Of a stretch of 12,431 bases of DNA, positions 1 to 10,464 are shown in pieces. This stretch comes from Verrucomicrobiota bacterium. GTDB lineage: Bacteria; Verrucomicrobiota; Verrucomicrobiia; Verrucomicrobiales; Akkermansiaceae. Position 1 is the first letter of the stretch, and every line of letters begins with the position of its first letter. The notes beneath the pieces are model-generated. The model worked only from the letters and a program-made list of their open reading frames with translations, was not told the DNA's origin and searched no databases. The DNA is taken from assembly GCA_009885905.1 (NCBI GenBank), contig VFJU01000405.1, forward strand, positions 1 to 12,431. Direction: 5' to 3'. A program made the translations under genes and the position numbers.

Positions 1-6
1 GCGGGC

Positions 7-489
7 ATGGACAAGGTTGTTCCAAGTGGATTGGTTGCGGGTGGCCCTGGCGAGAAGGCCGCGCTCAAACGGTTCACAGGTTTTTTGAAAGGTCTAGATG
101 ATGCCAAGTTTGTTCGTGAAAATGCGCTACAAGTTTATGCGGCGGATGCTTATTTGGACGATACATTGGTGACGCATCACGGTGCAGCTGAGATCGAAGC
201 CTATTTTCTCAAAACCAGCGAGACGATGACCAGTTATCAGCTCGACATCGATGATGTGGTTAGATCAAAAGATGACTACTACATACGCTGGACCATGAAA
301 TTTGCTGCGCCGCTGGTGGGGGGTGGTAAGCCAGTTTTCTCGGTGGGCATGAGCCAAATTCGCTTCAATCGTGAAGGTAAGGTCGAGTTCCATCAGGATT
401 TCTGGGATGCAGGGAAAAACTTTTATGGTCGACTTCCAGTGATCGGGGGAGCGGTTGGGTATGTCAGAAAAAGTTTGAATGCTAACTGA
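7..489 (+). CDS. NTF2/SnoaL-like domain protein, first visible gene of the lipid operon
   Basis: This 160-residue protein has the size and pattern of the NTF2-like (SnoaL) cone fold. An N-terminal helix (residues about 17-45) is followed by a small acidic region and a strand-rich C-terminal half, ending in the family-like segment at residues 115-134 (SQIRF...GKVEFHQDFWD). No signal peptide or membrane segment is seen. NTF2-like proteins of this type often accompany COG2907 flavoproteins, DUF1365 proteins and cyclopropane-synthase-like methyltransferases. By inference it assists that pathway as a small enzyme or binding protein, but its reaction is unknown. The reading frame stays open for the six bases before this ATG to the window edge, so the true start may lie further left and the gene may be cut. 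The stop at 487-489 directly abuts the desaturase leader. Fold assignment is fairly sure; function is open. Confidence 0.75.
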   Translation: MDKVVPSGLVAGGPGEKAALKRFTGFLKGLDDAKFVRENALQVYAADAYLDDTLVTHHGAAEIEAYFLKTSETMTSYQLDIDDVVRSKDDYYIRWTMKFAAPLVGGGKPVFSVGMSQIRFNREGKVEFHQDFWDAGKNFYGRLPVIGGAVGYVRKSLNAN

Positions 490-501
490 TTGATTGAAAC
501 T

Positions 502-1503
502 ATGAATCCAAATCATCAAGTGCCTGAAAAGAAACCCATGGGTGTCTGGGGTGTCTTTGTCCTAACATTTTGCCAGTGGCTTGATTCAGATTTTCGGCGC
601 GAGGGTCTACCCGACCCTGCAGATCTCCCCGAAAAAGTTAATTGGCAGCGGACCCTTCCGTTTATTTTCCTTCACCTCGGATGCCTTGCCGTAATTTGGG
701 TTGGATTTAGTCCCGTTGCCGTTGGCGCAGCCATTTTTCTCTACGTTGTGCGGATGTTTGCAATCACGGGTTTCTACCACCGCTATTTTTCACACAGGAC
801 TTTTAAAACCTCCCGACCCGTCCAATTCATTTTCGCGGTGTTAGGTAATAGCTCAATGCAACGGGGTCCCTTGTGGTGGGCTGCGAACCATCGCCACCAT
901 CACAAGCATTCAGATCACGAGGAAGACATTCATTCTCCTGTGATCAGTGGATTTGCTTGGTCTCATATCGGTTGGCTGACCTCGATGAAAAATTTCCCCA
1001 CGTCGTACAAGAGCATTCCGGATCTTAGTAAATTTCCTGAATTGGTTTTTCTAAACCGTTATGACCAGACCGTGCCATTTGCTTACGGGTTGATCATGTT
1101 GGGCACGGGGTGGGTCCTTGAAACATTTTTCCCAGCGCTTGGAGTGTCGATGGGTCAGTTTTTTGTTTGGACGTTTTTCATTAGTACGACTGTGCTGTTG
1201 CATGGGACCTTGTTCATCAATTCTCTCGCTCATGTATGGGGGCGTCGTCGTTATAACACTGACGACGATAGCCGTAACAGTTGGTTGCTGACAATCATCA
1301 CTCTAGGGGAAGGTTGGCACAATAATCATCACCGTTACCCGCATTCCGTCAGGCAAGGGTTTCGTTGGTGGGAGTTGGATCTAACTTATTATGGTCTTAA
1401 AATACTGTCATGGACTGGCTTAATCTGGGACCTAAGGCCGGTTCCTCTAGTGGTGATTGAGGAAGGCAAGGTAGCTCTCGGATCCCACCAGCATCCTGCA
1501 TGA
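502..1503 (+). CDS. Fatty acid desaturase, stearoyl-CoA/acyl-lipid delta-9 type (integral membrane di-iron)
   Basis: The protein (333 residues from this ATG) has all the histidine boxes of the membrane di-iron desaturases: HRYFSH at residues 93-98, HRHHH at 130-134 and HNNHH at 273-277. It also has the extra NxxxH ligand pair (N240, H244) typical of stearoyl-CoA-desaturase relatives (COG1398). Hydrophobic stretches around residues 50-85 and 190-235 fit the four-helix membrane architecture. The family uses O2 and electrons from a redox partner to insert a cis double bond, usually delta-9, into an acyl chain. In this operon it probably supplies the unsaturated substrate that the methyltransferases need, which is an inference. 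A TTG at 490, directly after the previous stop, would add four residues. I prefer the ATG, although neither has a clear Shine-Dalgarno. The gene overlaps the next one by ATGA. Regiospecificity cannot be read from sequence. Confidence 0.93.
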   Translation: MNPNHQVPEKKPMGVWGVFVLTFCQWLDSDFRREGLPDPADLPEKVNWQRTLPFIFLHLGCLAVIWVGFSPVAVGAAIFLYVVRMFAITGFYHRYFSHRTFKTSRPVQFIFAVLGNSSMQRGPLWWAANHRHHHKHSDHEEDIHSPVISGFAWSHIGWLTSMKNFPTSYKSIPDLSKFPELVFLNRYDQTVPFAYGLIMLGTGWVLETFFPALGVSMGQFFVWTFFISTTVLLHGTLFINSLAHVWGRRRYNTDDDSRNSWLLTIITLGEGWHNNHHRYPHSVRQGFRWWELDLTYYGLKILSWTGLIWDLRPVPLVVIEEGKVALGSHQHPA

Positions 1504-2780
1504 GTCGGGGCAGGATTGCCATCGTCGGAACTGGAATCGCGGGCTTATCCTGTGCGCATTTTTTACGTCGAGATTATGATTTAACCTTGTTTGAAAAAGA
1601 TGATAGAATCGGCGGCCATTCCCATACGGTTTTAGTCAATGAGGGTCACCAAGTCATTCCTATAGACACAGGCTTCATGGTTTATAATGAAGTGACTTAT
1701 CCTCTCCTCACGCGTCTCTTTCGTGAGTTAAATGTTGCCACCAAGCCGACCTCCATGTCCTTCAGCGTGAACCACGTTGCGGATCGTCTTGAGTTTAATG
1801 GCGGAAGCGTCAACTTGCTTTTCGGGCAGCGGAAAAACCTTTTTAGTCCACGCTATTGGCGGATGCTCGGTCAGATTGCGCGTTTTAACCGTGAAACCAT
1901 CGAGGAGCTGGCGAATCCTGTCTTTGGAGATATTTCATTGATGGAATATGTGATCGCGCGGGGATATGGAAATGACTTTTTGGACTGGTATCTCTCACCC
2001 ATGGCGGCGGCGGTTTGGTCAAGTCCTCCCGAGCGAATCAAAATGTTTCCTGCTAAAACGTTGATGCGTTTTTGGCACAATCACGGGTTTCTTGGATTGG
2101 ACACCCAGCACCCGTGGCGAACGGTTTCGGGCGGTTCGAGATGCTACGTGGAAAAGTTAAGTCAACCATTCTCCGACTGTATCCATCGCGGTGCGCCGGT
2201 GAAGTCGGTGACTCGTTCCGCGAGGGGATCAGTCCTGATGCTGGACGATGGAAAGCCTTTCGAGTTCGATCATGTGGTGATCGCCGCACATGGTGATCAA
2301 GCGCTGCAGTTACTTGCCGATCCGACGACGTTAGAACTGGATATTCTCGGTCGGTTTCACTATCAGAATAATGAAGCTGTTTTGCACACGGATACTAAGT
2401 TCATGCCACGAACTCGGCGTTGCTGGGCATCATGGAATTATCGCATTGATCAGGACGAGAATAAGCAAAACCGTTATTCAACCCACTATTGGATGAACGA
2501 GTTGCAGGGTGTTTCAGAGCGTGAATCCTACTTTGTTTCGATTAACCCGCCGACATCTCCTGACGAGGCTTCGATCAAGCGGAGACTTATTTATGAGCAT
2601 CCGCTGTTTGATCTAACAGCAGTATCGGCGCAAGCTCGCTTGCCGGAACTGCACCAGGCTGGAGCGAAAACTGGACGTGTTTTTTGCGGTGCGTGGCAAC
2701 GATATGGCTTTCACGAAGACGGACTATGGTCTGCGGTGAATGTTTGTACTGAGCTACTCGGGAGGGATCCGTGGGAATGA
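1500..2780 (+). CDS. FAD-dependent oxidoreductase (COG2907, amine-oxidase-like), lipid modification
   Basis: This 426-residue flavoprotein opens with a Rossmann dinucleotide motif (GTGIAGLS, residues 10-17), the acidic end of strand two (FEKDD, about 31-35) and the RIGGHSHT segment that contacts FAD in the amine-oxidase/phytoene-desaturase superfamily. Near the C terminus is the GFHEDG signature (within GAWQRYGFHEDGLW), characteristic of the COG2907 group. No transmembrane helix is evident. Members of this group are almost always next to a DUF1365 gene and a cyclopropane-synthase-family gene, as here. In Rhodobacter, genes of this neighbourhood take part in furan fatty acid synthesis, where UfaD desaturates and UfaO adds oxygen to methylated phospholipid acyl chains. 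I cannot say from sequence which role, if either, this protein has. The start overlaps the desaturase stop (ATGA) and its stop overlaps the DUF1365 start, implying translational coupling. Confidence 0.9.
   Translation: MSRGRIAIVGTGIAGLSCAHFLRRDYDLTLFEKDDRIGGHSHTVLVNEGHQVIPIDTGFMVYNEVTYPLLTRLFRELNVATKPTSMSFSVNHVADRLEFNGGSVNLLFGQRKNLFSPRYWRMLGQIARFNRETIEELANPVFGDISLMEYVIARGYGNDFLDWYLSPMAAAVWSSPPERIKMFPAKTLMRFWHNHGFLGLDTQHPWRTVSGGSRCYVEKLSQPFSDCIHRGAPVKSVTRSARGSVLMLDDGKPFEFDHVVIAAHGDQALQLLADPTTLELDILGRFHYQNNEAVLHTDTKFMPRTRRCWASWNYRIDQDENKQNRYSTHYWMNELQGVSERESYFVSINPPTSPDEASIKRRLIYEHPLFDLTAVSAQARLPELHQAGAKTGRVFCGAWQRYGFHEDGLWSAVNVCTELLGRDPWE
2761..2765 (+). promoter_or_regulatory. Shine-Dalgarno GGAGG for the DUF1365 gene
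   Basis: GGAGG lies inside the end of the COG2907 gene. It is 5 bases before a GTG at 2771 and 11 bases before the ATG at 2777, so both starts are possible. The ATG is favoured because it forms the ATGA overlap used elsewhere in this operon. The choice changes the protein by only two residues. Confidence 0.5.
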
Positions 2781-3571
2781 ATGCACTCTACGAATGTTTG
2801 GTGAGTCATAGCAGATTAAAGCCTAAGAGACATGCATTCAATTACCGTGTTTTTATGTTCTGCGTGGACTTGGATGACCTGCCAAGGCTGAGTCATCGTA
2901 TTTTTGGATTCAGTCACAACCGGTTCAATTGGTTCTCGATCGACGATCAAGATCACATCGATCTTGGTAAGCCCGGCGGCATTCGTGGTAATTTAATCGC
3001 TTGGCTCAATACACAGGAGCTTCATTTTCCGGCAGACGTAAAAATCCAGTTGCTGACATTTCCACGTGCGCTCGGTTACGGCTTCAATCCGGTGTCATTT
3101 TATTATATTTTCGCGCCGAGTGGTACTCCGCTTGCGGTGGTTGCAGAAGTGGTGAACACGTTTAGGGAAATGAAACTGTATGCGATTGATTCGGTAGGTG
3201 ATGATCAATTGTGGCATCGAAGAGTGGCAAAGAACTTCTATGTTTCGCCGTTTTCAGATCCGAGTATTGATTTTGATTTTCGTCTTGGAGTCCCGAGTGA
3301 TCAATGGCGGGTCAACATTGACGATTATGCCGATGGCGAGCGAATTTTACAAAGCTCGGTGCGTGGAACTAGACGGCGATTGTCCTCGTTTCGGTTGGTC
3401 TGGTATGCTTTGAAATATCCACTCTTGTCGCTGCGGATTATTGGATTGATTCACTGGCACGCCCTGCTTCTCTGGGCTAGGCGGGTGCCTTATTTCCGTA
3501 AAAGTGATCGTCTCGAAGCACAACAAGATGTGATGCGACAGCAATCCAGTTCAAAGTCAAAGTCCCCATGA
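2777..3571 (+). CDS. DUF1365 family protein (COG3496)
   Basis: The 264-residue product matches DUF1365. The N terminus (residues 1-30) has the ALYECLVSHSRLKPKRHAF pattern. The central signature RALGYGFNPVSFYY is at 97-110, followed by the VVNTFRE segment at about 125-131 (EVHNTFGE-like in the family) and KNFYVSPF at 152-159. A hydrophobic and basic segment around residues 205-235 could associate with the membrane. DUF1365 proteins have no established isolated mechanism that I can name. They occur with COG2907 flavoproteins and cyclopropane-synthase-family methyltransferases, and in Rhodobacter genes of this neighbourhood are needed for furan fatty acids. A role on methylated phospholipid acyl chains is therefore inferred. 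The C-terminal tail (about 250-264) is Ser/Lys/Gln rich and probably disordered. A GTG at 2771 is the alternative start. The stop overlaps the methyltransferase ATG at 3568. Confidence 0.9.
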   Translation: MNALYECLVSHSRLKPKRHAFNYRVFMFCVDLDDLPRLSHRIFGFSHNRFNWFSIDDQDHIDLGKPGGIRGNLIAWLNTQELHFPADVKIQLLTFPRALGYGFNPVSFYYIFAPSGTPLAVVAEVVNTFREMKLYAIDSVGDDQLWHRRVAKNFYVSPFSDPSIDFDFRLGVPSDQWRVNIDDYADGERILQSSVRGTRRRLSSFRLVWYALKYPLLSLRIIGLIHWHALLLWARRVPYFRKSDRLEAQQDVMRQQSSSKSKSP

Positions 3572-4875
3572 GTACGACCACCGAAATCAAATCTGAGTGT
3601 GTGCCATCCGTGGCTTGTACACATCCCAAGAACGGATTTTCCGAACGGATGGTGGTTGGGTTGTTAGAAAAAATGCCAGTGGGAGGACTTCGGTTGGAAC
3701 ATGCGGATGGTCGTGTGCGCCACTTTGGTGCCCCGGGTGCGCCTGTCACGGCGCGCGTGATTCTGAGAGACGATTCAGGATTCTTCAAACGCTGTGCGTT
3801 TTACGGTAACATCGGTATGGGTGAGGCTTACACCGATGGACTTTGGGATACCGAAGACATTGCTGCGGTGATTTCCTGGTTTGTGCATAATGTGAACGCT
3901 CTTCAAGGCGCGGAGAGTTCGGCGGCAAGTCTTCCTGGGGTGAATCTTCTTAAGGTTGTGAATTGGTTCCGACACTTGCGGCGTGAGAACTCCGTGGAGA
4001 CGAGTCGGAAAAATATCGCGGAACACTACGACCTTGGTAACAACTTCTATCAGTTATGGCTAGATCCAAGCATGACGTATTCGAGTGCTCGTTTTGAAAA
4101 TGCAACCCAGACGCTCGAAGCAGCACAGCGCGGAAAATACGATGCGTTGTGTCGAAAGCTTAAGCTCAAACGTACAGATCATATTTTAGAAATTGGCTGT
4201 GGTTGGGGAGGATTTGCGGTGCACGCAGCGAAGCACTTCGGTTGTAAAGTCACGGGTGTGACGATCTCAGAGGCTCAGGCGGATTACGCCCGTAAACGGA
4301 TCTCAAGCGAGGGATTGGAGGGCCAAGTCGAGATTCGAATCCAAGACTACCGCCACATCACTGGTCGATTTGATAAAATCGCATCGATAGAAATGCTCGA
4401 GGCGGTCGGAGATAAATACCATCGGTCTTTTTTTGCAAAATGTGCGGAAGTTCTGACACCACAGGGTTTGTTAGGAGTCCAGATGATCACGGTGCCGGAT
4501 TGCAGTTATCGCAGTTTGAAGAAGAATGTGGATTGGATTCAAAAGCACATCTTTCCGGGTTCTCTTTTGCTCAGTGTCGGACGAATCAATGACGTTCTAT
4601 TAGAAACTGGAGACCTTTTCATGCACGATCTCGAGGACTTGGGAGCCGACTATGCTCGTACGCTTTCGACTTGGTATGATCAATTCAATTCGGTGAAGGA
4701 AGAAGTCGCCGCATTGGGATTTGATGAGCCGTTTGTTAGATCTTGGAATTACTATTTAAAATATTGTGAAGCCGCCTTTGCCACACGGAATATTTCGGTA
4801 GTCCAAGCCATTTATACACGTCCGAATAATTCACTGCTGCATCACCGATTTGAAGAGGGGCGGGGTAATGAGTGA
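3568..4875 (+). CDS. SAM-dependent methyltransferase, cyclopropane-fatty-acyl-phospholipid synthase family (COG2230), UfaM/plant-CPA-synthase-like
   Basis: The 435-residue protein has the two-part layout of this family. An N-terminal lipid-associated domain (about 1-140) precedes AEHYDLGNNFY (151-161) and a class I SAM-methyltransferase domain with motif EIGCGWGG (208-215) and GVTISEAQ (230-237). The family transfers a one-carbon unit from SAM to the double bond of a phospholipid acyl chain, giving a cyclopropane or, in UfaM and related enzymes, a methylated alkene. Compared with E. coli Cfa, the bicarbonate-site glutamate is kept (E278), as is the GADY tyrosine (Y362). The Cys139 position is Ser173 and the His266 position is Gln305, within QMITVPD. 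The Gln and the following ITVPD resemble plant cyclopropane synthases and the flavoprotein-linked bacterial enzymes. The start overlaps the DUF1365 stop (ATGA) and has no clear Shine-Dalgarno. Family is certain; the product (cyclopropane versus methyl branch) is not. Confidence 0.93.
   Translation: MSTTTEIKSECVPSVACTHPKNGFSERMVVGLLEKMPVGGLRLEHADGRVRHFGAPGAPVTARVILRDDSGFFKRCAFYGNIGMGEAYTDGLWDTEDIAAVISWFVHNVNALQGAESSAASLPGVNLLKVVNWFRHLRRENSVETSRKNIAEHYDLGNNFYQLWLDPSMTYSSARFENATQTLEAAQRGKYDALCRKLKLKRTDHILEIGCGWGGFAVHAAKHFGCKVTGVTISEAQADYARKRISSEGLEGQVEIRIQDYRHITGRFDKIASIEMLEAVGDKYHRSFFAKCAEVLTPQGLLGVQMITVPDCSYRSLKKNVDWIQKHIFPGSLLLSVGRINDVLLETGDLFMHDLEDLGADYARTLSTWYDQFNSVKEEVAALGFDEPFVRSWNYYLKYCEAAFATRNISVVQAIYTRPNNSLLHHRFEEGRGNE
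4855..4860 (+). promoter_or_regulatory. Shine-Dalgarno GAGGGG deciding the DUF2062 start
   Basis: GAGGGG lies in the last codons of the methyltransferase gene, 7 bases before the ATG at 4868. It supports that start over the upstream TTG at 4850, which lacks a site at suitable distance. Confidence 0.6.
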
Positions 4876-5386
4876 GATGTTTAAGGGCGTAAGTACAACC
4901 AAAGAAACTTGGTGGCGGCGTTGGCTGGTGAGGCCGGTTGTTGGTCAGTTGACTTGTGGCGTTTCTCCGCAGAAAATTGCGTGGACGATTTCTTTGGGAA
5001 TCGTTTTAGGAGTTTTTCCTGTCATGGGTACCACCACGTTGGTGTGTTTTCTAATGGGTTGGATGCTCCGCCTCAATCAACCGGTTTTGCACGTATTTAA
5101 GACTTTGGTATATCCATTGCACCTCGCGATGATTCTTGTTTTCATCCGCATGGGAGAGCATCTGTATCAGGTTCCATTGATTTCATTCTCCATTCCACAG
5201 TTGCTCGAGCGATTCAAGGTGGATCCACTTCAATTTGTGAGAGATTTTGGAATGACTGCATGGTACGGGGTGAGTGCATGGTTGATCGTAGCGCCGCTGG
5301 CGGCATTTCTAATCAAACTGTCGGTGATGCCCTTTTTGACGAGATTGGCCGAGACTATCAAACGACGACAGGAGCTTACATCATGA
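4868..5386 (+). CDS. DUF2062 family integral membrane protein
   Basis: The 172-residue product fits DUF2062 (COG3216). A short basic, Trp-rich N terminus (WWRRWLVRP, 15-23) is followed by the family segment SPQKIAWTISLGIVLGVFPV (33-52) and further hydrophobic helices at about 54-68, 77-96 and 128-158. The short basic tail is probably cytoplasmic. The family's function is unknown. Members are small inner-membrane proteins, sometimes beside glycosyltransferase or lipid genes. Its place between two acyl-chain methyltransferases, with an 8-base overlap to the preceding gene and an ATGA overlap to the next, suggests it serves the same pathway, perhaps as a membrane scaffold or in lipid access. That is inference. 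The ATG at 4868 is chosen because GAGGGG lies 7 bases upstream; a TTG at 4850 would add six residues. Confidence 0.8.
   Translation: MSEMFKGVSTTKETWWRRWLVRPVVGQLTCGVSPQKIAWTISLGIVLGVFPVMGTTTLVCFLMGWMLRLNQPVLHVFKTLVYPLHLAMILVFIRMGEHLYQVPLISFSIPQLLERFKVDPLQFVRDFGMTAWYGVSAWLIVAPLAAFLIKLSVMPFLTRLAETIKRRQELTS
5370..5374 (+). promoter_or_regulatory. Shine-Dalgarno AGGAG deciding the DUF1295 start
   Basis: AGGAG sits 8 bases before the ATG at 5383, inside the end of the DUF2062 gene. It identifies 5383 as the real start rather than the GTG at 5260, which would add 41 non-conserved residues overlapping the DUF2062 gene in another frame. Confidence 0.65.
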
Positions 5387-6183
5387 ACAGTGGATTGGCT
5401 TTTTTGATCGGTTGTGCGGTGGCAATGTTGCTTTTTTTCCTAACATGGATCTTAGCGTCTCGCTGCGATAATTTCTCATGGGTTGATGCGGCGTGGGCTT
5501 TTGGTGTCGGTTTGATTGGGGTGTATTGGTTGACGGTTCTCGGGAGAAGTTGCGCAAAACATTGGGCGGTGGCAGGCTTGCTTGTGTTATGGAGTGCGCG
5601 GCTTGGTTGGCACCTGCAAAAGCGAATTCGAAGGACTCATCCCGAAGAAGATGCCCGCTATGTAAAACTTCGGGAAGTTTGGTCAGGACGTGTTCTATCA
5701 GCATTTTTTTGGTTCTTCCAAGCACAGGCGGCCTCGGTGGTGCTGTTGGCATTACCATTTCTGATCATTGCAGTTGATGCAGACACGACGTGGAGCGGGT
5801 GGGAGTCGGTTGGTCTGTGTGTCGCACTCGTCGGAATTTTAGGAGAGGGCTTGGCGGATATGCAAATGGCTCGCTTTAAGTCTCAAGACCATGGTACTAA
5901 ATCCGTTTGCCAAGAGGGGTTGTGGCGATACTCGCGACATCCCAACTATTTTTTCGAGGCGGTCATTTGGCTCGGTTTTTACCTATATTCATGTGGATCT
6001 AACTGGGGATGGGCGATGATTTATGCTCCTTGCGTGATCATTTTTTTATTACTCAAGGTCACGGGAATTCCTCCTACAGAAGCCGCAGCAGTTGCACGTA
6101 AGGGTGATGCATACCGACGTTACCAAAAGTCAACCAGTCCATTCATTCCTCTACCGCCTCGTCGAAACAACAAAAATTTCTAA
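5383..6183 (+). CDS. DUF1295 membrane protein, steroid 5-alpha-reductase-like (COG3752)
   Basis: The 266-residue polytopic protein begins with a hydrophobic helix (about 4-26), then DNFSWVDAAWAFG (29-41), further helices at about 42-55, 62-75, 104-130 and 140-156, and ends with the family hallmark GLWRYSRHPNYFFE (179-192). The tail, with DAYRRYQKSTSPFIPLPPR, is also typical. The RHPNYF region corresponds to the cofactor-binding end of steroid 5-alpha reductases and isoprenylcysteine/phospholipid methyltransferase-like proteins. The superfamily usually reduces activated or isolated double bonds with NADPH, but DUF1295 enzymes are poorly characterised. Sitting between two acyl-methyltransferases, it could reduce a methylated or methylene alkene intermediate to a saturated branch (inference). 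It starts inside the DUF2062 stop (ATGA at 5383) with a good Shine-Dalgarno. Five bases separate its stop from the next gene. Confidence 0.88.
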   Translation: MNSGLAFLIGCAVAMLLFFLTWILASRCDNFSWVDAAWAFGVGLIGVYWLTVLGRSCAKHWAVAGLLVLWSARLGWHLQKRIRRTHPEEDARYVKLREVWSGRVLSAFFWFFQAQAASVVLLALPFLIIAVDADTTWSGWESVGLCVALVGILGEGLADMQMARFKSQDHGTKSVCQEGLWRYSRHPNYFFEAVIWLGFYLYSCGSNWGWAMIYAPCVIIFLLLKVTGIPPTEAAAVARKGDAYRRYQKSTSPFIPLPPRRNNKNF

Positions 6184-6188
6184 CAACC

Positions 6189-7229
6189 ATGATTCATACT
6201 AATGATATACTCGCCAAGGGCATCATTCCGGATGCGTTGATTCGTATCGGCATTCGTCAACGTCTTGCGGCAACATTGCTTCCATTTGAAAAACTCAATT
6301 GTGAGCAGCGCCAGGCGAAGGTCATGCAACATGTCGCGGAGTTGCGTTCGAGTCCGGTGGCTATTTCAACGGACGAGGCGAACGAGCAGCATTACGAGTT
6401 GCCAACGCGTTTCTTTGAGCGCGTTTTGGGTAAGAACATGAAATACAGCTCAGGGTATTGGGACGAAGGGGTTTCCGGTATTGATGAATCTGAAGCGCGG
6501 ATGCTCCAGATCACCTGTGAGCGTGCTGGGTTACAAGATGGTCAGCGTGTTCTCGAGTTGGGATGTGGCTGGGGTTCCCTCACCCTTTGGATGGCAGCAC
6601 ACTATCCGAATTCACGGATCACCGCCGTGTCAAACTCGCGCACGCAGAAAATCCATATTGATTCACAATTGGCGGTACGGGGTTTGAAAAACGTCGAAGT
6701 GCGAACTGCGAATATGATTCACTATGCCGGTGAGGGTGATGGGGTGTTTGACCGAGTGGTTTCCGTGGAGATGTTCGAGCACATGAAAAATTACGAGGTG
6801 CTCATGGAACGGATTTCTAGTTGGTTGAAGCCCGGTGGTGCCTTGTTTGTGCATATTTTTACGCACCGCGAATACGCCTATCATTACGAGGCGGAGGGCG
6901 AGGATGATTGGATGGCGCGTTACTTCTTCACGGGCGGTCAAATGCCTTCGGATGATCTGTTACTTTATTTTCAAAATCATCTTAGGATCGTCGGGCATTG
7001 GCAAGTCAGTGGGAGTCACTATCAGAAAACCTCGGAAGCGTGGTTGACTCGGATGGATGCCGCGCGCGATGAGCTTTTGCCGTTGATTGCCGAAACCTAC
7101 GGGCAAGACCAACAAACCCGGTGGTGGGTTTATTGGCGGGTGTTTTTCATGGCGTGCGCTGAGCTATGGGGTTACCGCGGTGGCGATGAGTGGATTGTTT
7201 CGCACTATCGCTTTTCCAAGCCAGATTAA
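6189..7229 (+). CDS. Second SAM-dependent methyltransferase, cyclopropane-synthase/coclaurine-N-methyltransferase-like
   Basis: The 346-residue protein has the class I methyltransferase motif VLELGCGWGS (121-130), the upstream NEQHYELPTRFF (65-76) and the YSSGYW stretch (86-91). In place of the longer E. coli Cfa N-terminal domain it has a short helical one. The C-terminal half, with FTGGQMPSDDLLLYF (247-261), GSHYQKTSEAWL (275-286) and FMACAELWGY (320-329), matches the bacterial group related to plant (S)-coclaurine N-methyltransferases, a branch of the cyclopropane-synthase family. Positions equivalent to the Cfa bicarbonate site look retained (E197 in EMFEH, H222 in FVHIF), unlike the first methyltransferase. 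It may act on the lipid product of the upstream genes, as FufM adds a second methyl to furan fatty acids; this is inference. The start is 5 bases after the DUF1295 stop with only weak Shine-Dalgarno. It is the last operon gene. Confidence 0.9.
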   Translation: MIHTNDILAKGIIPDALIRIGIRQRLAATLLPFEKLNCEQRQAKVMQHVAELRSSPVAISTDEANEQHYELPTRFFERVLGKNMKYSSGYWDEGVSGIDESEARMLQITCERAGLQDGQRVLELGCGWGSLTLWMAAHYPNSRITAVSNSRTQKIHIDSQLAVRGLKNVEVRTANMIHYAGEGDGVFDRVVSVEMFEHMKNYEVLMERISSWLKPGGALFVHIFTHREYAYHYEAEGEDDWMARYFFTGGQMPSDDLLLYFQNHLRIVGHWQVSGSHYQKTSEAWLTRMDAARDELLPLIAETYGQDQQTRWWVYWRVFFMACAELWGYRGGDEWIVSHYRFSKPD

Positions 7230-7239: not shown

Positions 7240-8639
7240 CAGAAGGTTTTTCGCAAATGCGAAGGAAGGATGCCGAGTTGTTCGCGGTATTTGGCGATGG
7301 TTCTGCGGGCGACTTTGATCCCTTGTTTGTGCAGTGACTTCATGAGAAACTCGTCGGAAAGGGGCTTTTCTTGATTTTCCGAGCCGACTAACTGTTGAAT
7401 CGCTTCACGCACTCCTGCGTTGGATACTTCTTCTCCGTTGGTGGTTTGGTAGCCCGTGGCGAAAAATGCCCGCATCTCCATGAGACCGTGTGGAGTTAGA
7501 ACATATTTTCCGGAGACTGCTCGAGAAATCGTCGTTGCATGGAGGTTGAGTTCGTCGGCGATGTCGCTCATCGTTAGGGGTCGCAAATGACGGTGACCCT
7601 TGCGGAGAAACATCGGCTGGTGCTCGATGAGTTTGTGGGTGATCGCGAGGATAGTTTCTTGGCGCAGTGAAATGGCGTGGATCAAACTGCGCCCGTCACG
7701 GATTTGGTCGCGGAGAAATTGGCGTGCTTTAGTATCGATGCCATTTTTTCCGATCATGTCTTTGTAGAAGTCGTTGATACGGAGATTTGGCAAGTGCTCA
7801 CCTGTTAGGCGGGCGTACCACTCGCCATCATCGTCTTGTTCAATCACGGCATCTGGCAGAATATATGGATTACCCGTCGGGTCGAATTCGCCGCCAGGAT
7901 TTGGAGTCAGGCGTCCGATCCGAGTGGCGGCTTCTGCGATGCGTTCGACGTTGGTTCCGAGGGCGCGGGCAATTTGTGGGTGGCGCCTGCGGGCGAGATC
8001 TTCGAGGTGGTTCAGTACGACCTTATACTCAATCGTATTTTTCCCGTTGGAACGATCGAGCTGCAATAGAAGGGATTCGGGAATGCCGGACGCACCAATT
8101 CCAGCGGGGTCAAAAGACTGGACGAGGGCCAATCCTGCCGCGAGATGGTCGGGCTTGAAGCCCATTCGGACCCCGAGAGCTTTGCATGTCATGTCAAGAA
8201 ACCCGCGCGAATCCAGGTTACCGAGTATGGCTTGGGCGCATTCTCGGACTTCTGGATCGACCATGGATTGGTCGAGTTGGTGTTGCAAATGCTGCTGGAG
8301 TGTTTCGGGCGCGACGATCGAATCGTAGATCCTTTGGCGCCGCTCCTCATCGTCGCTCGTCCATGGTGATGACTTGCCCTCGAGAATCGACCGGTCCCGC
8401 CAATCGTCGTCGGTTTCGTTCATGTATTCCAGCGAATCGGCTTCATCAGGATCCGCTGAATCGTCGTCGAGTGAGACTGTCTCGGTGATGTCTTCGAGCA
8501 CCGGATTGGTTTCGAGAGCTTGTTGAACCAATTGGCCCAATTCCAGGGTGCTGGATTGCAAAATTTCTAAGCTCTTGCGCATTTGTGGCGCGAGAGTCTG
8601 CTGTTGAGACAGCGATTGTTTTAGAAATACATCGGACAT
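7239..8639 (-). CDS. rpoN: RNA polymerase sigma-54 factor RpoN
   Basis: The 466-residue product is a full-length sigma-54. Region I (residues 1-50) is the Gln/Leu-rich activator-interacting segment (LKQSLSQQQTLAPQM). Residues about 50-100 form the acidic linker, and 103-300 the core-polymerase-binding domain (including IGASGIPESLLLQL). A helix-turn-helix lies at 354-376 (LTMSDIADELNLHATTISRA) and MRAFFATG at about 389-396. The diagnostic RpoN box ARRTIAKYRE is at 444-453 near the C terminus. It recognises -24/-12 promoters and needs AAA+ enhancer-binding proteins to open DNA. It converges with the lipid operon, with 9 bases between stop codons. A near-consensus -24/-12 element stands about 60 bases before its start codon. 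No Shine-Dalgarno is evident. Length and all key motifs are normal, so it should be active. Confidence 0.97.
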   Translation of the reverse strand: MSDVFLKQSLSQQQTLAPQMRKSLEILQSSTLELGQLVQQALETNPVLEDITETVSLDDDSADPDEADSLEYMNETDDDWRDRSILEGKSSPWTSDDEERRQRIYDSIVAPETLQQHLQHQLDQSMVDPEVRECAQAILGNLDSRGFLDMTCKALGVRMGFKPDHLAAGLALVQSFDPAGIGASGIPESLLLQLDRSNGKNTIEYKVVLNHLEDLARRRHPQIARALGTNVERIAEAATRIGRLTPNPGGEFDPTGNPYILPDAVIEQDDDGEWYARLTGEHLPNLRINDFYKDMIGKNGIDTKARQFLRDQIRDGRSLIHAISLRQETILAITHKLIEHQPMFLRKGHRHLRPLTMSDIADELNLHATTISRAVSGKYVLTPHGLMEMRAFFATGYQTTNGEEVSNAGVREAIQQLVGSENQEKPLSDEFLMKSLHKQGIKVARRTIAKYREQLGILPSHLRKTF

Positions 8640-8820
8640 TGCGGGGGTGCGATTGATTCGCTGTCGCTAATGTATCGAAAAAACTACAAGAAAAGAAGCA
8701 ATTTTTGTGCCATGAAGTAATATTTATTATCGCATGAGGAAATTAGGGGTCTAGAATGACATTTCTTGCTTAGTTTAGGCAAGTTACAAGGTGTGACGTG
8801 CCACATGGGGTGGTTATGCA
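8640..8820 (-). other. Intergenic region between the pyrophosphatase gene and rpoN
   Basis: This 181-base AT-rich gap lies downstream of the pyrophosphatase gene and upstream of rpoN. It contains the sigma-54-type element at 8697-8712. It also contains an imperfect stem-loop at 8765-8783 (CTTGC...GCAAG, eight pairs including one wobble on the plus-strand RNA) without a T run, so it is not a convincing terminator for either strand. An AT-only inverted repeat TAATA-AA-TATTA lies just upstream of the -24 element. No small ORF or structured RNA was recognised. Confidence 0.6.
8697..8712 (-). promoter_or_regulatory. Sigma-54 (-24/-12) promoter upstream of rpoN
   Basis: On the minus strand the bases read TGGCACAAAAATTGCT. 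The sigma-54 consensus is TGGCACG-N4-TTGCW; only the seventh base differs, and the 10-base spacing between the invariant GG and GC is exact. The predicted start of transcription is near 8686-8687, leaving a leader of about 47 bases before the rpoN ATG. This suggests that RpoN holoenzyme drives or modulates its own gene, with an unknown enhancer-binding protein acting from upstream. Confidence 0.6.
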
Positions 8821-10464
8821 TTACAGTCCCCGGATCAAGTCGACCAAGTAAGGCATCATCTGTTTCTTGCGAGACAGGACGCCGACCATTTCGAAGAGGT
8901 TTTCTCCAATTTTCGGGTAGCTTATGGCCTCGATGATTTTTTCCTCTCCGGAGCACAAAAGCAAACTGGTGCTGCTGGTGATGTCGGTGACCATGAGGCA
9001 GCTGAATTGGCAGGCCGCTTCTTCCCGTGCGCGGTCTAACTCCTTGGCGAGTGATTCGCTTATATCTTTGAAGGTTTCCAAGCCGACAGTTTCCATCTGA
9101 CTCACGCTGATTTTCCAACCGCTTTCGTCGTAGATTTTAAGATCTTGGTGGATGAGAGTTTTTGGATTCACGCCATCTACCGCGCAGCCTGCGGAAAACA
9201 TTTTGTTACCAAAGGAGGGTAAATCCACTTGGGCGAGTTTTGCTAGCCAACTTGCCATTTCACGGTCGAGTGGGGTGGTCGTTGGCGATTGGAGGATCAC
9301 TGTATCTGATAGAATTGCAGCCAACATCAAGCCAGCGATCTTGAGCGGTGGTTCTACGCGGGAGTTTTGAAATAGCTCTGCGATGATCGTGCAGGTGCAG
9401 CCGACCACCTTATTGATAAAAGTGATGGGCTGGTCAGTGCTACGATAGCCGAGGCGGTGATGATCGATGATTTCCTCCACTGAGGCTTCTTCCACGCCAT
9501 CCACGGCTTGTGATAGTTCGTTATGATCCACCAAGGCTACGCGAAATTTCCAATGCGTTAGGAAACTGAGGCGGGTGATGACTCCGCAGATGAATCCGTC
9601 ATCGTCTGTGACGATGAACCCGCCTTCATTCGATTTTCGAATCTCTTTTTGGACCTCGCGAACCAGATTGTAGGGTCTGAAAATCGACTCTTGTCGTTCG
9701 ATGAAATCTTGCAGTGGTATGGAAAGACACAGTTTTGTGGCCACATCCAGTGCGTAGCGTGCGGTGGTAATCACGCAGGCACATTTGTTGCGGAGCATTT
9801 CGGTCATGTTGTCCGCGAGCGTCTCGGTGGCGCAGATGACTATCACGTCGGCACCGCGTTTGCAGGCTTCAATCAGGCCAGATTCTCCGCCATCCGGCAG
9901 GACCACTAACAATGGATGTTCGCCTGCAGGTGGCGTGGCGGCGAGGCCTTGGAGACAAACTCTGCCACGAAACGACTTAGGAATTTCTCCCATGATCAGC
10001 CGACCAGAGATTGATTCAAAAAACGTCTGAAGCTGAATAGATCGGTCAGGTTTGCAGCAGAGTTCTGTAAGATTTGGTATTAGGCTCGCAAGTTGTAATG
10101 CGGAAATTTTTCCAGCGTACCGACCATCTTCGCCGGTGACTGGCAGAAATGCGAACCGATCACGTGTGATCACTTGTTGTGCGTTAGAGACTGCGTCGTC
10201 CTCCTTCAGCGAGATCACCTGTTCCACTGGGATCATGATGTCGGAGAGAGTGGGTAACATCGAGATTAGGAGTTGTGGTTCCTGCACCTTGAAGTAATCC
10301 AAAACGAATCGGGTCTGTGGATTGATATTTCCTGCACGGTATGGCACCGCAGGTATTCCTAACACTTCATTTTTGTAGTGTGCGTATGCGATCGCCGAGC
10401 AGATGGAGTCCGTATCTGGGTTCTTATGCCCGATGACCATTAGGGGTTGTTCTGGGTGTGACAT
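8821..10464 (-). CDS. Manganese-dependent (family II, DHH) inorganic pyrophosphatase with CBS-DRTGG-CBS insert
   Basis: The 547-residue protein hydrolyses pyrophosphate to phosphate. Catalytic residues of the DHH family are visible: GHKNPDTDS (H13, D17, D19), LVDHNE (D313), the DHH motif IIDHHRLG (D334-H335-H336), D387, and SRKKQ in the C-terminal DHHA2 domain (R532, K533). Between the first motif and the DHH motif are a CBS repeat (about 70-130), a DRTGG domain (about 135-245) and a second CBS repeat (about 248-305). This is the layout of regulated CBS-PPases, in which adenine nucleotides modulate activity. Plain family II enzymes have only about 310 residues, so the added length is the regulatory insert. 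The gene follows purL on the same strand after a 161-base gap and precedes rpoN. No Shine-Dalgarno is visible. All key residues are present, so it is expected to be active and nucleotide-regulated. Confidence 0.93.
   Translation of the reverse strand: MSHPEQPLMVIGHKNPDTDSICSAIAYAHYKNEVLGIPAVPYRAGNINPQTRFVLDYFKVQEPQLLISMLPTLSDIMIPVEQVISLKEDDAVSNAQQVITRDRFAFLPVTGEDGRYAGKISALQLASLIPNLTELCCKPDRSIQLQTFFESISGRLIMGEIPKSFRGRVCLQGLAATPPAGEHPLLVVLPDGGESGLIEACKRGADVIVICATETLADNMTEMLRNKCACVITTARYALDVATKLCLSIPLQDFIERQESIFRPYNLVREVQKEIRKSNEGGFIVTDDDGFICGVITRLSFLTHWKFRVALVDHNELSQAVDGVEEASVEEIIDHHRLGYRSTDQPITFINKVVGCTCTIIAELFQNSRVEPPLKIAGLMLAAILSDTVILQSPTTTPLDREMASWLAKLAQVDLPSFGNKMFSAGCAVDGVNPKTLIHQDLKIYDESGWKISVSQMETVGLETFKDISESLAKELDRAREEAACQFSCLMVTDITSSTSLLLCSGEEKIIEAISYPKIGENLFEMVGVLSRKKQMMPYLVDLIRGL

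Follow-up and report, generated by a model that had tools for sequence, protein, structure and literature searches.

Can one bacterial operon supply what is needed to build methylated furan rings into membrane lipids, and does it do so outside the alphaproteobacteria? The question is raised by contig VFJU01000405.1 (GenBank assembly GCA_009885905.1) of a Verrucomicrobiota bacterium of the family Akkermansiaceae, which was analysed over its whole length of 12,431 nucleotides and is called the window below. Eight genes on the + strand fill positions 1–7229 and encode, from 5' to 3', an NTF2-like protein, a desaturase, a UfaD-like flavoenzyme, a DUF1365 (UfaO-like) protein, a UfaM-like methyltransferase, a DUF2062 protein, a DUF1295 protein and a FufM-like methyltransferase, and the spacing or overlap between neighbours is at most 26 bases for any choice of start codons. 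Open frames and Pfam matches thereby bear out the original prediction, made from the letters alone, of eight closely spaced genes of these families.

The same four enzyme kinds are found in Rhodopseudomonas palustris (RPA2571–2569 and RPA0924) and Rhodobacter sphaeroides (RSP1091, RSP1090 and RSP2144), where an acyl chain with a monomethyl furan is built by UfaM, UfaD and UfaO and converted to the dimethyl form by FufM (RPA0924) (Lemke et al. 2020, PMC7380195; here and below, a citation refers to the part of the paper's text that was available). We consider it probable, from gene content and conservation, that the operon of the window equips membrane phospholipids with acyl chains that carry a methylated furan. 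Its genes are of the right kinds, co-occur and are kept together, and they point to a furan, instead of a methyl-branched acid, as the likely product. The predicted self-contained furan pathway with a FufM-type second enzyme draws support from alignments, active-site signatures, a tree, neighbourhoods and co-occurrence.

Candidates for the four furan-pathway enzyme kinds

The two methyltransferases of the cyclopropane-synthase (CMAS) family are 25% identical to each other over 285 columns and fall into separate clades, in agreement with their earlier assignment to different subfamilies. The reference set comprised 39 loci reached in Rhodopseudomonas and Rhodoblastus, with four Rhodopseudomonas genomes searched. 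Pairwise alignment of the window proteins with the candidates of Rhodopseudomonas strain XCP gives identities of 40% for UfaM, 46% for FufM, 43% over 428 columns for UfaD and 36% over 240 columns for UfaO, which has diverged furthest among the four. Strain XCP encodes three strong CMAS proteins, the same number as described for strain CGA009 (two other Rhodopseudomonas genomes encode only two), and the FufM candidate is the sole FufM-type protein in R. palustris XCP.

Active-site positions were read from an alignment to the E. coli Cfa chain, at sites C139, E239, H266, I268 and Y317. The 23 UfaM-type rows have Ser (21 rows) or Ala (2 rows), Glu, Gln, Ile and Tyr at these five sites, together with the motif EMxEA, and six rows of cyclopropane fatty acid (CFA) synthase type have C139 and GMFEH, with site 266 occupied by His in four and Gln in two. 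The 23 FufM-type rows, including that of the window, have Glu, His, Phe and Tyr at the last four sites and Ser, Ala or Cys (four rows) at site 139; the single coclaurine N-methyltransferase (CNMT) row has Glu, Glu, Ile and Phe at the last four. The window UfaM carries S139, EMLEA and Q266, and the second enzyme S139, EMFEH, H266, F268 and Y317. CFA synthase, a member of the same superfamily in E. coli, is ruled out as an identity for either window enzyme, both of which have Ser in place of Cys139 (though 4 of the 23 FufM-type rows have Cys), the UfaM-like one also lacking the EH motif. The second enzyme was likewise rejected as a coclaurine N-methyltransferase, with His, Phe and Tyr versus Glu, Ile and Phe at three sites (one reference row).

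A tree of 52 rows places the window UfaM with the Rhodopseudomonas UfaM proteins in a clade supported at 100/97, the six CFA rows lying outside (88/51), and groups the second window enzyme with FufM at 100/100; the one CNMT row falls inside, in the same superclade, with its placement unsettled. There is thus a strong case that the UfaM-like enzyme is distinct from CFA synthase and of UfaM type, and a good one that the second methyltransferase is FufM-like, with a predicted role in the step from monomethyl to dimethyl furan.

The case that UfaD and UfaO are furan-pathway enzymes by kind is, as judged from their sequences, also strong. Of the glycines in the GxGxxG motif of UfaD, G10 and G12 never vary in 35 rows, and G15 is retained in 90% or more of them. 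UfaO and UfaM are fused in a single protein of 657–712 residues in all seven long frames checked in Verrucomicrobiota (L123–L128 and L140, of which L123–L128 were chosen for their long DUF1365 frame); DUF1365 frames of at least 650 residues occur in 11 of the 64 genomes of the phylum that encode the family.

Two further loci show departures in the methyltransferase genes. One genome (G004, locus L161) contains two UfaM-like copies separated by roughly 7 kb, the second followed by a DUF2062 match (7826–9019 and 15617–16417), and in a same-genus assembly the FufM-type gene (G010:C234:10179–11099) contains three internal TGA codons and one TAG.

Neighbourhoods, co-occurrence and known relatives

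Twenty related stretches were fetched, drawn from the 26 other genomes whose FufM-type gene reaches at least 58% identity. UfaD-UfaO-UfaM stand beside the FufM type in 16 of the 20, 12 also have the desaturase, and eight show the complete eight-gene order, a recurrence that argues against a chance grouping; DUF2062 is present in 13. UfaO lies elsewhere in the genome than the FufM-type stretch in four cases (G004, G005, G017 and G058). It was found in seven of the eight FufM-type carriers searched for it, a search that left out carriers G003 and G025 and extended to G034, which is outside the phylum set described next.

Among 288 Verrucomicrobiota genomes, DUF1365/UfaO occurs in 64, and UfaD-like proteins (E ≤ 1e-40) occur in the identical 64. 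The FufM type (E ≤ 1e-30 and at least 46% identity, a count excluding a second, 31% match in G311 that is its UfaO-UfaM frame) occurs in 53, all within these 64; it lies within 6 kb of UfaO in 37 and not in the other 16. DUF1295 is present in 59 genomes, 58 of them UfaO genomes; of the 51 genomes that also have the FufM type, 38 have the two genes no more than 2 kb apart. It is still found in 7 of the 11 UfaO genomes that lack the FufM type, and thus appears to track the pathway, not FufM alone. These counts are uncorrected for kinship, UfaO being spread over 20 families and the FufM type over 15. The sole DUF1295 genome without UfaO (G207) has a desaturase of the operon type adjoining its DUF1295 gene, and in one UfaO genome without the FufM type the DUF1295 match (G182:C1:1259206–1259891) is split by an internal TAA.

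The arrangement has partial counterparts in other organisms. In each of the four Rhodopseudomonas genomes, ufaD, ufaO and ufaM form a single run, ordered as in the window, and at a separate site DUF1295 immediately precedes the 341-residue CMAS protein that is the FufM candidate; the two genes are likewise adjacent in the window. Unlike Rhodopseudomonas and Rhodobacter, the window has all of these in one operon, with a desaturase, DUF2062 and an NTF2-like gene in addition, and ChrR and FabA gave no match in its host. A plasmid of Acinetobacter sp. WY4 (NZ_CP053948, L003, 3894–10020) follows the order of the window, desaturase-UfaD-UfaO-UfaM-DUF1295-FufM type, with an NTF2-family gene nearby, but is distinguished by being plasmid-borne, by the lack of a DUF2062 match and by histidine kinase and photolyase neighbours. 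Six further Acinetobacter plasmids are among the matches listed for the last gene, at 47–48% identity.

Consecutive ufaD, ufaO and ufaM genes are described in Halomonas sp. YLGW01, and E. coli has served as expression host for its ufaM and cfa; the available text mentions neither FufM nor an operon desaturase (PMC12089945). Arabidopsis UFAMD1, UFAO1 and FUFM1/LIME1 are homologues of all four enzymes, with a single protein combining the UfaM and UfaD parts, as against the UfaO-UfaM fusion of Verrucomicrobiota (PMC10940516). In Chlamydomonas, singlet oxygen induces CFA1, CFA2 (also CPLD27, coclaurine N-methyltransferase), DUF1365 and DUF1295 genes in a SAK1-dependent manner (PMC4067076). Both of these systems differ from the window in being eukaryotic, and no link to a desaturase is seen in the available texts. 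The original prediction had placed the pathway outside the alphaproteobacteria, which is true of this host but, given Halomonas and Arabidopsis, not new in itself.

On Mesorhizobium and Rhizobium plasmids, pathway genes lie near genes for RpoE-ChrR, the regulators of the singlet-oxygen response (PMC6852236). The Mesorhizobium terrae plasmid (L005) has msrP, fasciclin, DUF2177 and heme-binding genes around ufaDOM and DUF1295-FufM; similar names (fasciclin, DUF2177 and SOUL heme-binding) recur, in the available text, for Chlamydomonas genes that respond to singlet oxygen through SAK1. The literature searched showed no one-operon version for mono- and dimethyl furans with its own desaturase, no DUF1295 membership, no UfaO-UfaM fusion and no report of furan fatty acids for Verrucomicrobiota; among the papers listed, DUF1295 appeared in the Chlamydomonas study and in one plant microRNA paper, never with 'furan fatty acid'.

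The desaturase and the competing explanations

The desaturase matches solved acyl-CoA desaturases (4ymk, 1e-33; 4zyo, 9e-30) and is 49% identical to that of the Acinetobacter plasmid cluster, compared with 33–36% to a host paralogue on contig C184; the host has three FA_desaturase-family genes in all. A model of FabA found no match in the host at E ≤ 1e-5. Operon-type desaturases were counted at E ≤ 1e-80, a cut set after a gap had been seen between 1.8e-80 (48% identity) and 4e-48 (36%), with the weaker matches excluded. Within the UfaO genomes the type occurs in 1 of 13 that have FabA over its cut-off and in 46 of 51 that do not (Fisher 2e-8, uncorrected for kinship), so that 59 of the 64 have one or the other. 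Outside them, FabA occurs in 4 of 224 genomes. In families f14, f26 and f43, 11 of 12 genomes have FabA and none the operon-type desaturase; family f29 is mixed (FabA in two of four, desaturase in three of four, both in one). This alternation is read as that of two interchangeable cis-monoene sources for UfaM, and the desaturase is, with moderate confidence, the putative supplier of the cis-monounsaturated chain, standing in for FabA. As had been predicted, it is outside the described gene set, at least for the eight Rhodopseudomonas ufa/fufM stretches, in which it has no match at E 1e-4.

The desaturase might instead be a merely co-located general enzyme of membrane fluidity that does not feed UfaM, a reading that touches this one step only. 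In its favour, the host has two other genes of the family, six genomes have the type without UfaO, and five of the 64 UfaO genomes have neither source. The type is nevertheless nearly limited to UfaO genomes (47 of 64 versus 6 of 224) and alternates with FabA inside them, while two same-genus genomes without the FufM type (G007 and G008, 88 and 79% complete, UfaO unsearched) show only the other desaturase; we regard the co-location reading as unlikely. At the other end of the pathway, the operon could stop at the monomethyl furan, with the second methyltransferase acting elsewhere, for example on the amine of a headgroup or on a different acyl chain, by analogy with plant relatives that methylate the nitrogen of alkaloids. 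The nearest solved structures of the FufM-type protein are those of coclaurine (2e-81) and pavine (1.5e-68) N-methyltransferases, far ahead of CFA synthase (1.4e-28); the gene is missing from 11 of the 64 UfaO genomes, and carrier G034 has no UfaO match, in a genome 70% complete with a contig that starts inside a UfaM-like frame. The residues H266, F268 and Y317 are, however, those of FufM and not of CNMT (one row), the identity to the FufM candidate is 46%, and all 53 copies in the phylum set lie in UfaO genomes, even if 16 of them have no UfaO within 6 kb. FufM itself is 38% identical to the Arabidopsis lipid-droplet protein LIME1 (Omata et al., PMC10940516), and with this value and the placement in the FufM clade, likeness to plant N-methyltransferases is no argument against a lipid role. 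Another substrate for the second enzyme is thus quite improbable.

The products could also be methyl-branched or methyl-diene acids instead of furans, with UfaO having some other task. The divergence of UfaO (36%) would fit, and DUF1295 could saturate the double bond of a methylated monoene to leave a branched acid; in actinobacteria, 10-methyl acids arise by reduction of such a monoene. Such a route would, however, seem not to require UfaO, which shares the identical 64 of 288 genomes with UfaD and forms one protein with UfaM in all seven long frames checked, and we judge it very unlikely.

Further points weigh against the preferred reading, that of a furan pathway fed by its own desaturase, or against its parts. 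CGA009 is not among the Rhodopseudomonas strains compared, and the counterpart of RPA0924 was picked by elimination and by the 27% identity of the small XCP CMAS protein to UfaM, next to the 26% printed for RPA0924 against R. sphaeroides UfaM; the third XCP homologue shows 31% where 38% is printed, which makes that correspondence between XCP and CGA009 a loose one. ChrR (TIGR02451) has no match in the host and, in 13 genomes, two weak matches and none over the cut-off, although control by RpoE-ChrR goes with the pathway in proteobacteria without being a strict mark of it. Acinetobacter presumably has FabA although its cluster carries the desaturase. FufM works in vitro without DUF1295 (PMC7380195), and no lipid or enzyme measurement was found for the lineage. 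The published fatty acids of Luteolibacter include C16:1 ω9c at 21–22% in three strains, a fourth having 9% of summed feature 3 (PMC11427321), and those of Oceaniferula include C15:1, C17:1 and summed feature 3 (PMC9865893). Vaccenate is absent from both tables as available, for strains that may or may not carry the operon; with no vaccenate in Luteolibacter, substrate, chain length and furan position should therefore differ from those of Rhodobacter.

Operon layout and proposed pathway

Table 1. Genes of the operon, in window coordinates
Feature	Position	Strand	Evidence
SnoaL_2/NTF2-like protein, 5'-truncated by contig edge	1..489	+	Pfam SnoaL_2 1e-9; in-frame upstream sequence of relatives
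Acyl desaturase, acyl-CoA desaturase class	502..1503 (alternative TTG 490)	+	PF00487 FA_desaturase 5e-23
UfaD-like FAD (flavin adenine dinucleotide) enzyme, flavin amine-oxidase family	1500..2780	+	43% to Rhodopseudomonas UfaD candidate
UfaO-like DUF1365 protein	2771..3571 (GTG 2771 or ATG 2777)	+	PF07103 7e-69
UfaM-like methyltransferase	3568..4875	+	CMAS 5e-85; 40% to Rhodopseudomonas UfaM candidate
DUF2062 membrane protein	4850..5386 (alternative ATG 4868)	+	PF09835 2e-8
DUF1295 membrane protein	5383..6183	+	DUF1295 6e-62
FufM-like methyltransferase	6189..7229	+	CMAS 1e-40; 46% to Rhodopseudomonas FufM candidate

The host assembly comprises 2.78 Mb in 569 contigs and is 97% complete. The window is the whole of its contig C24, and the operon is therefore truncated at the left edge. 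The start at position 7 given by the original prediction is an internal Met, since relatives of the NTF2-like protein extend about 47 residues further N-terminally; this extension has a membrane segment and in several cases a lipobox-like L(N/A)SC end, and the protein may thus be an anchored lipoprotein. For DUF1295, 5383 is the most likely start, instead of the mechanical open-frame start at 5260. The opposite strand 3' of the operon encodes rpoN (which follows the operon in five of the six closest genomes fetched) and a DHH-type pyrophosphatase, beyond which lies a partial gene that we take to be purL. Among the 120 matches listed for the last gene, those with names belong to Akkermansiaceae, Luteolibacter, Roseibacillus and other Verrucomicrobiota.

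In the proposed pathway, the desaturase would make a cis-monounsaturated chain in a host without a FabA match, and UfaM would put the methyl group of S-adenosyl-L-methionine on the double bond, which shifts. The flavoenzyme UfaD would then dehydrogenate the methylated monoene to a conjugated methyl-diene, UfaO would insert an O2-derived oxygen into the diene, closing the furan, and the FufM-type enzyme would methylate the furan again to the dimethyl form. If the chemistry follows that of the known pathway, the expected product is a heptanoic acid bearing a pentyl-furan from a C16 chain unsaturated at Delta-9, and a pentanoic acid bearing a heptyl-furan from one unsaturated at Delta-7. The last four steps have been demonstrated by others in relatives, whereas the first step, what DUF1295 does and any chemistry in the host are our inference. 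The NTF2-like and DUF2062 proteins would be accessory.

Structural modelling gives DUF1295, which is 37% identical to its XCP counterpart, the fold of steroid 5-alpha and sterol-14 reductases, and this leads us to propose, tentatively, that it is the NADPH-dependent C=C reductase of the pathway, acting on an intermediate or a ring-opened product. Its motif SRHPNYF (residues 185–191, counted from 5380) is invariant in 25 rows and, we assume, resembles the cofactor site of those reductases.

The furan lipid probably serves in the membrane to scavenge or sense singlet oxygen. Singlet oxygen opens a furan to an unsaturated 1,4-dicarbonyl. In a speculative repair cycle, DUF1295, in the mould of steroid 5-alpha-reductase, would act as an enone reductase on the double bond of this product, and the resulting 1,4-diketone would reclose to the furan (Paal–Knorr), perhaps aided by UfaO or by the NTF2-like protein, whose fold includes ketosteroid isomerase. 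We hold the cycle to be improbable; if true, the furan would be a renewable quencher paid for in NADPH, not a one-shot scavenger.

For the Verrucomicrobiota, the operon would represent a single-operon route to monomethyl and probably dimethyl furan lipids. It puts forward two candidate additions to the pathway, DUF1295 and a desaturase that may replace FabA, and it makes the part played by DUF1295 beside FufM testable.

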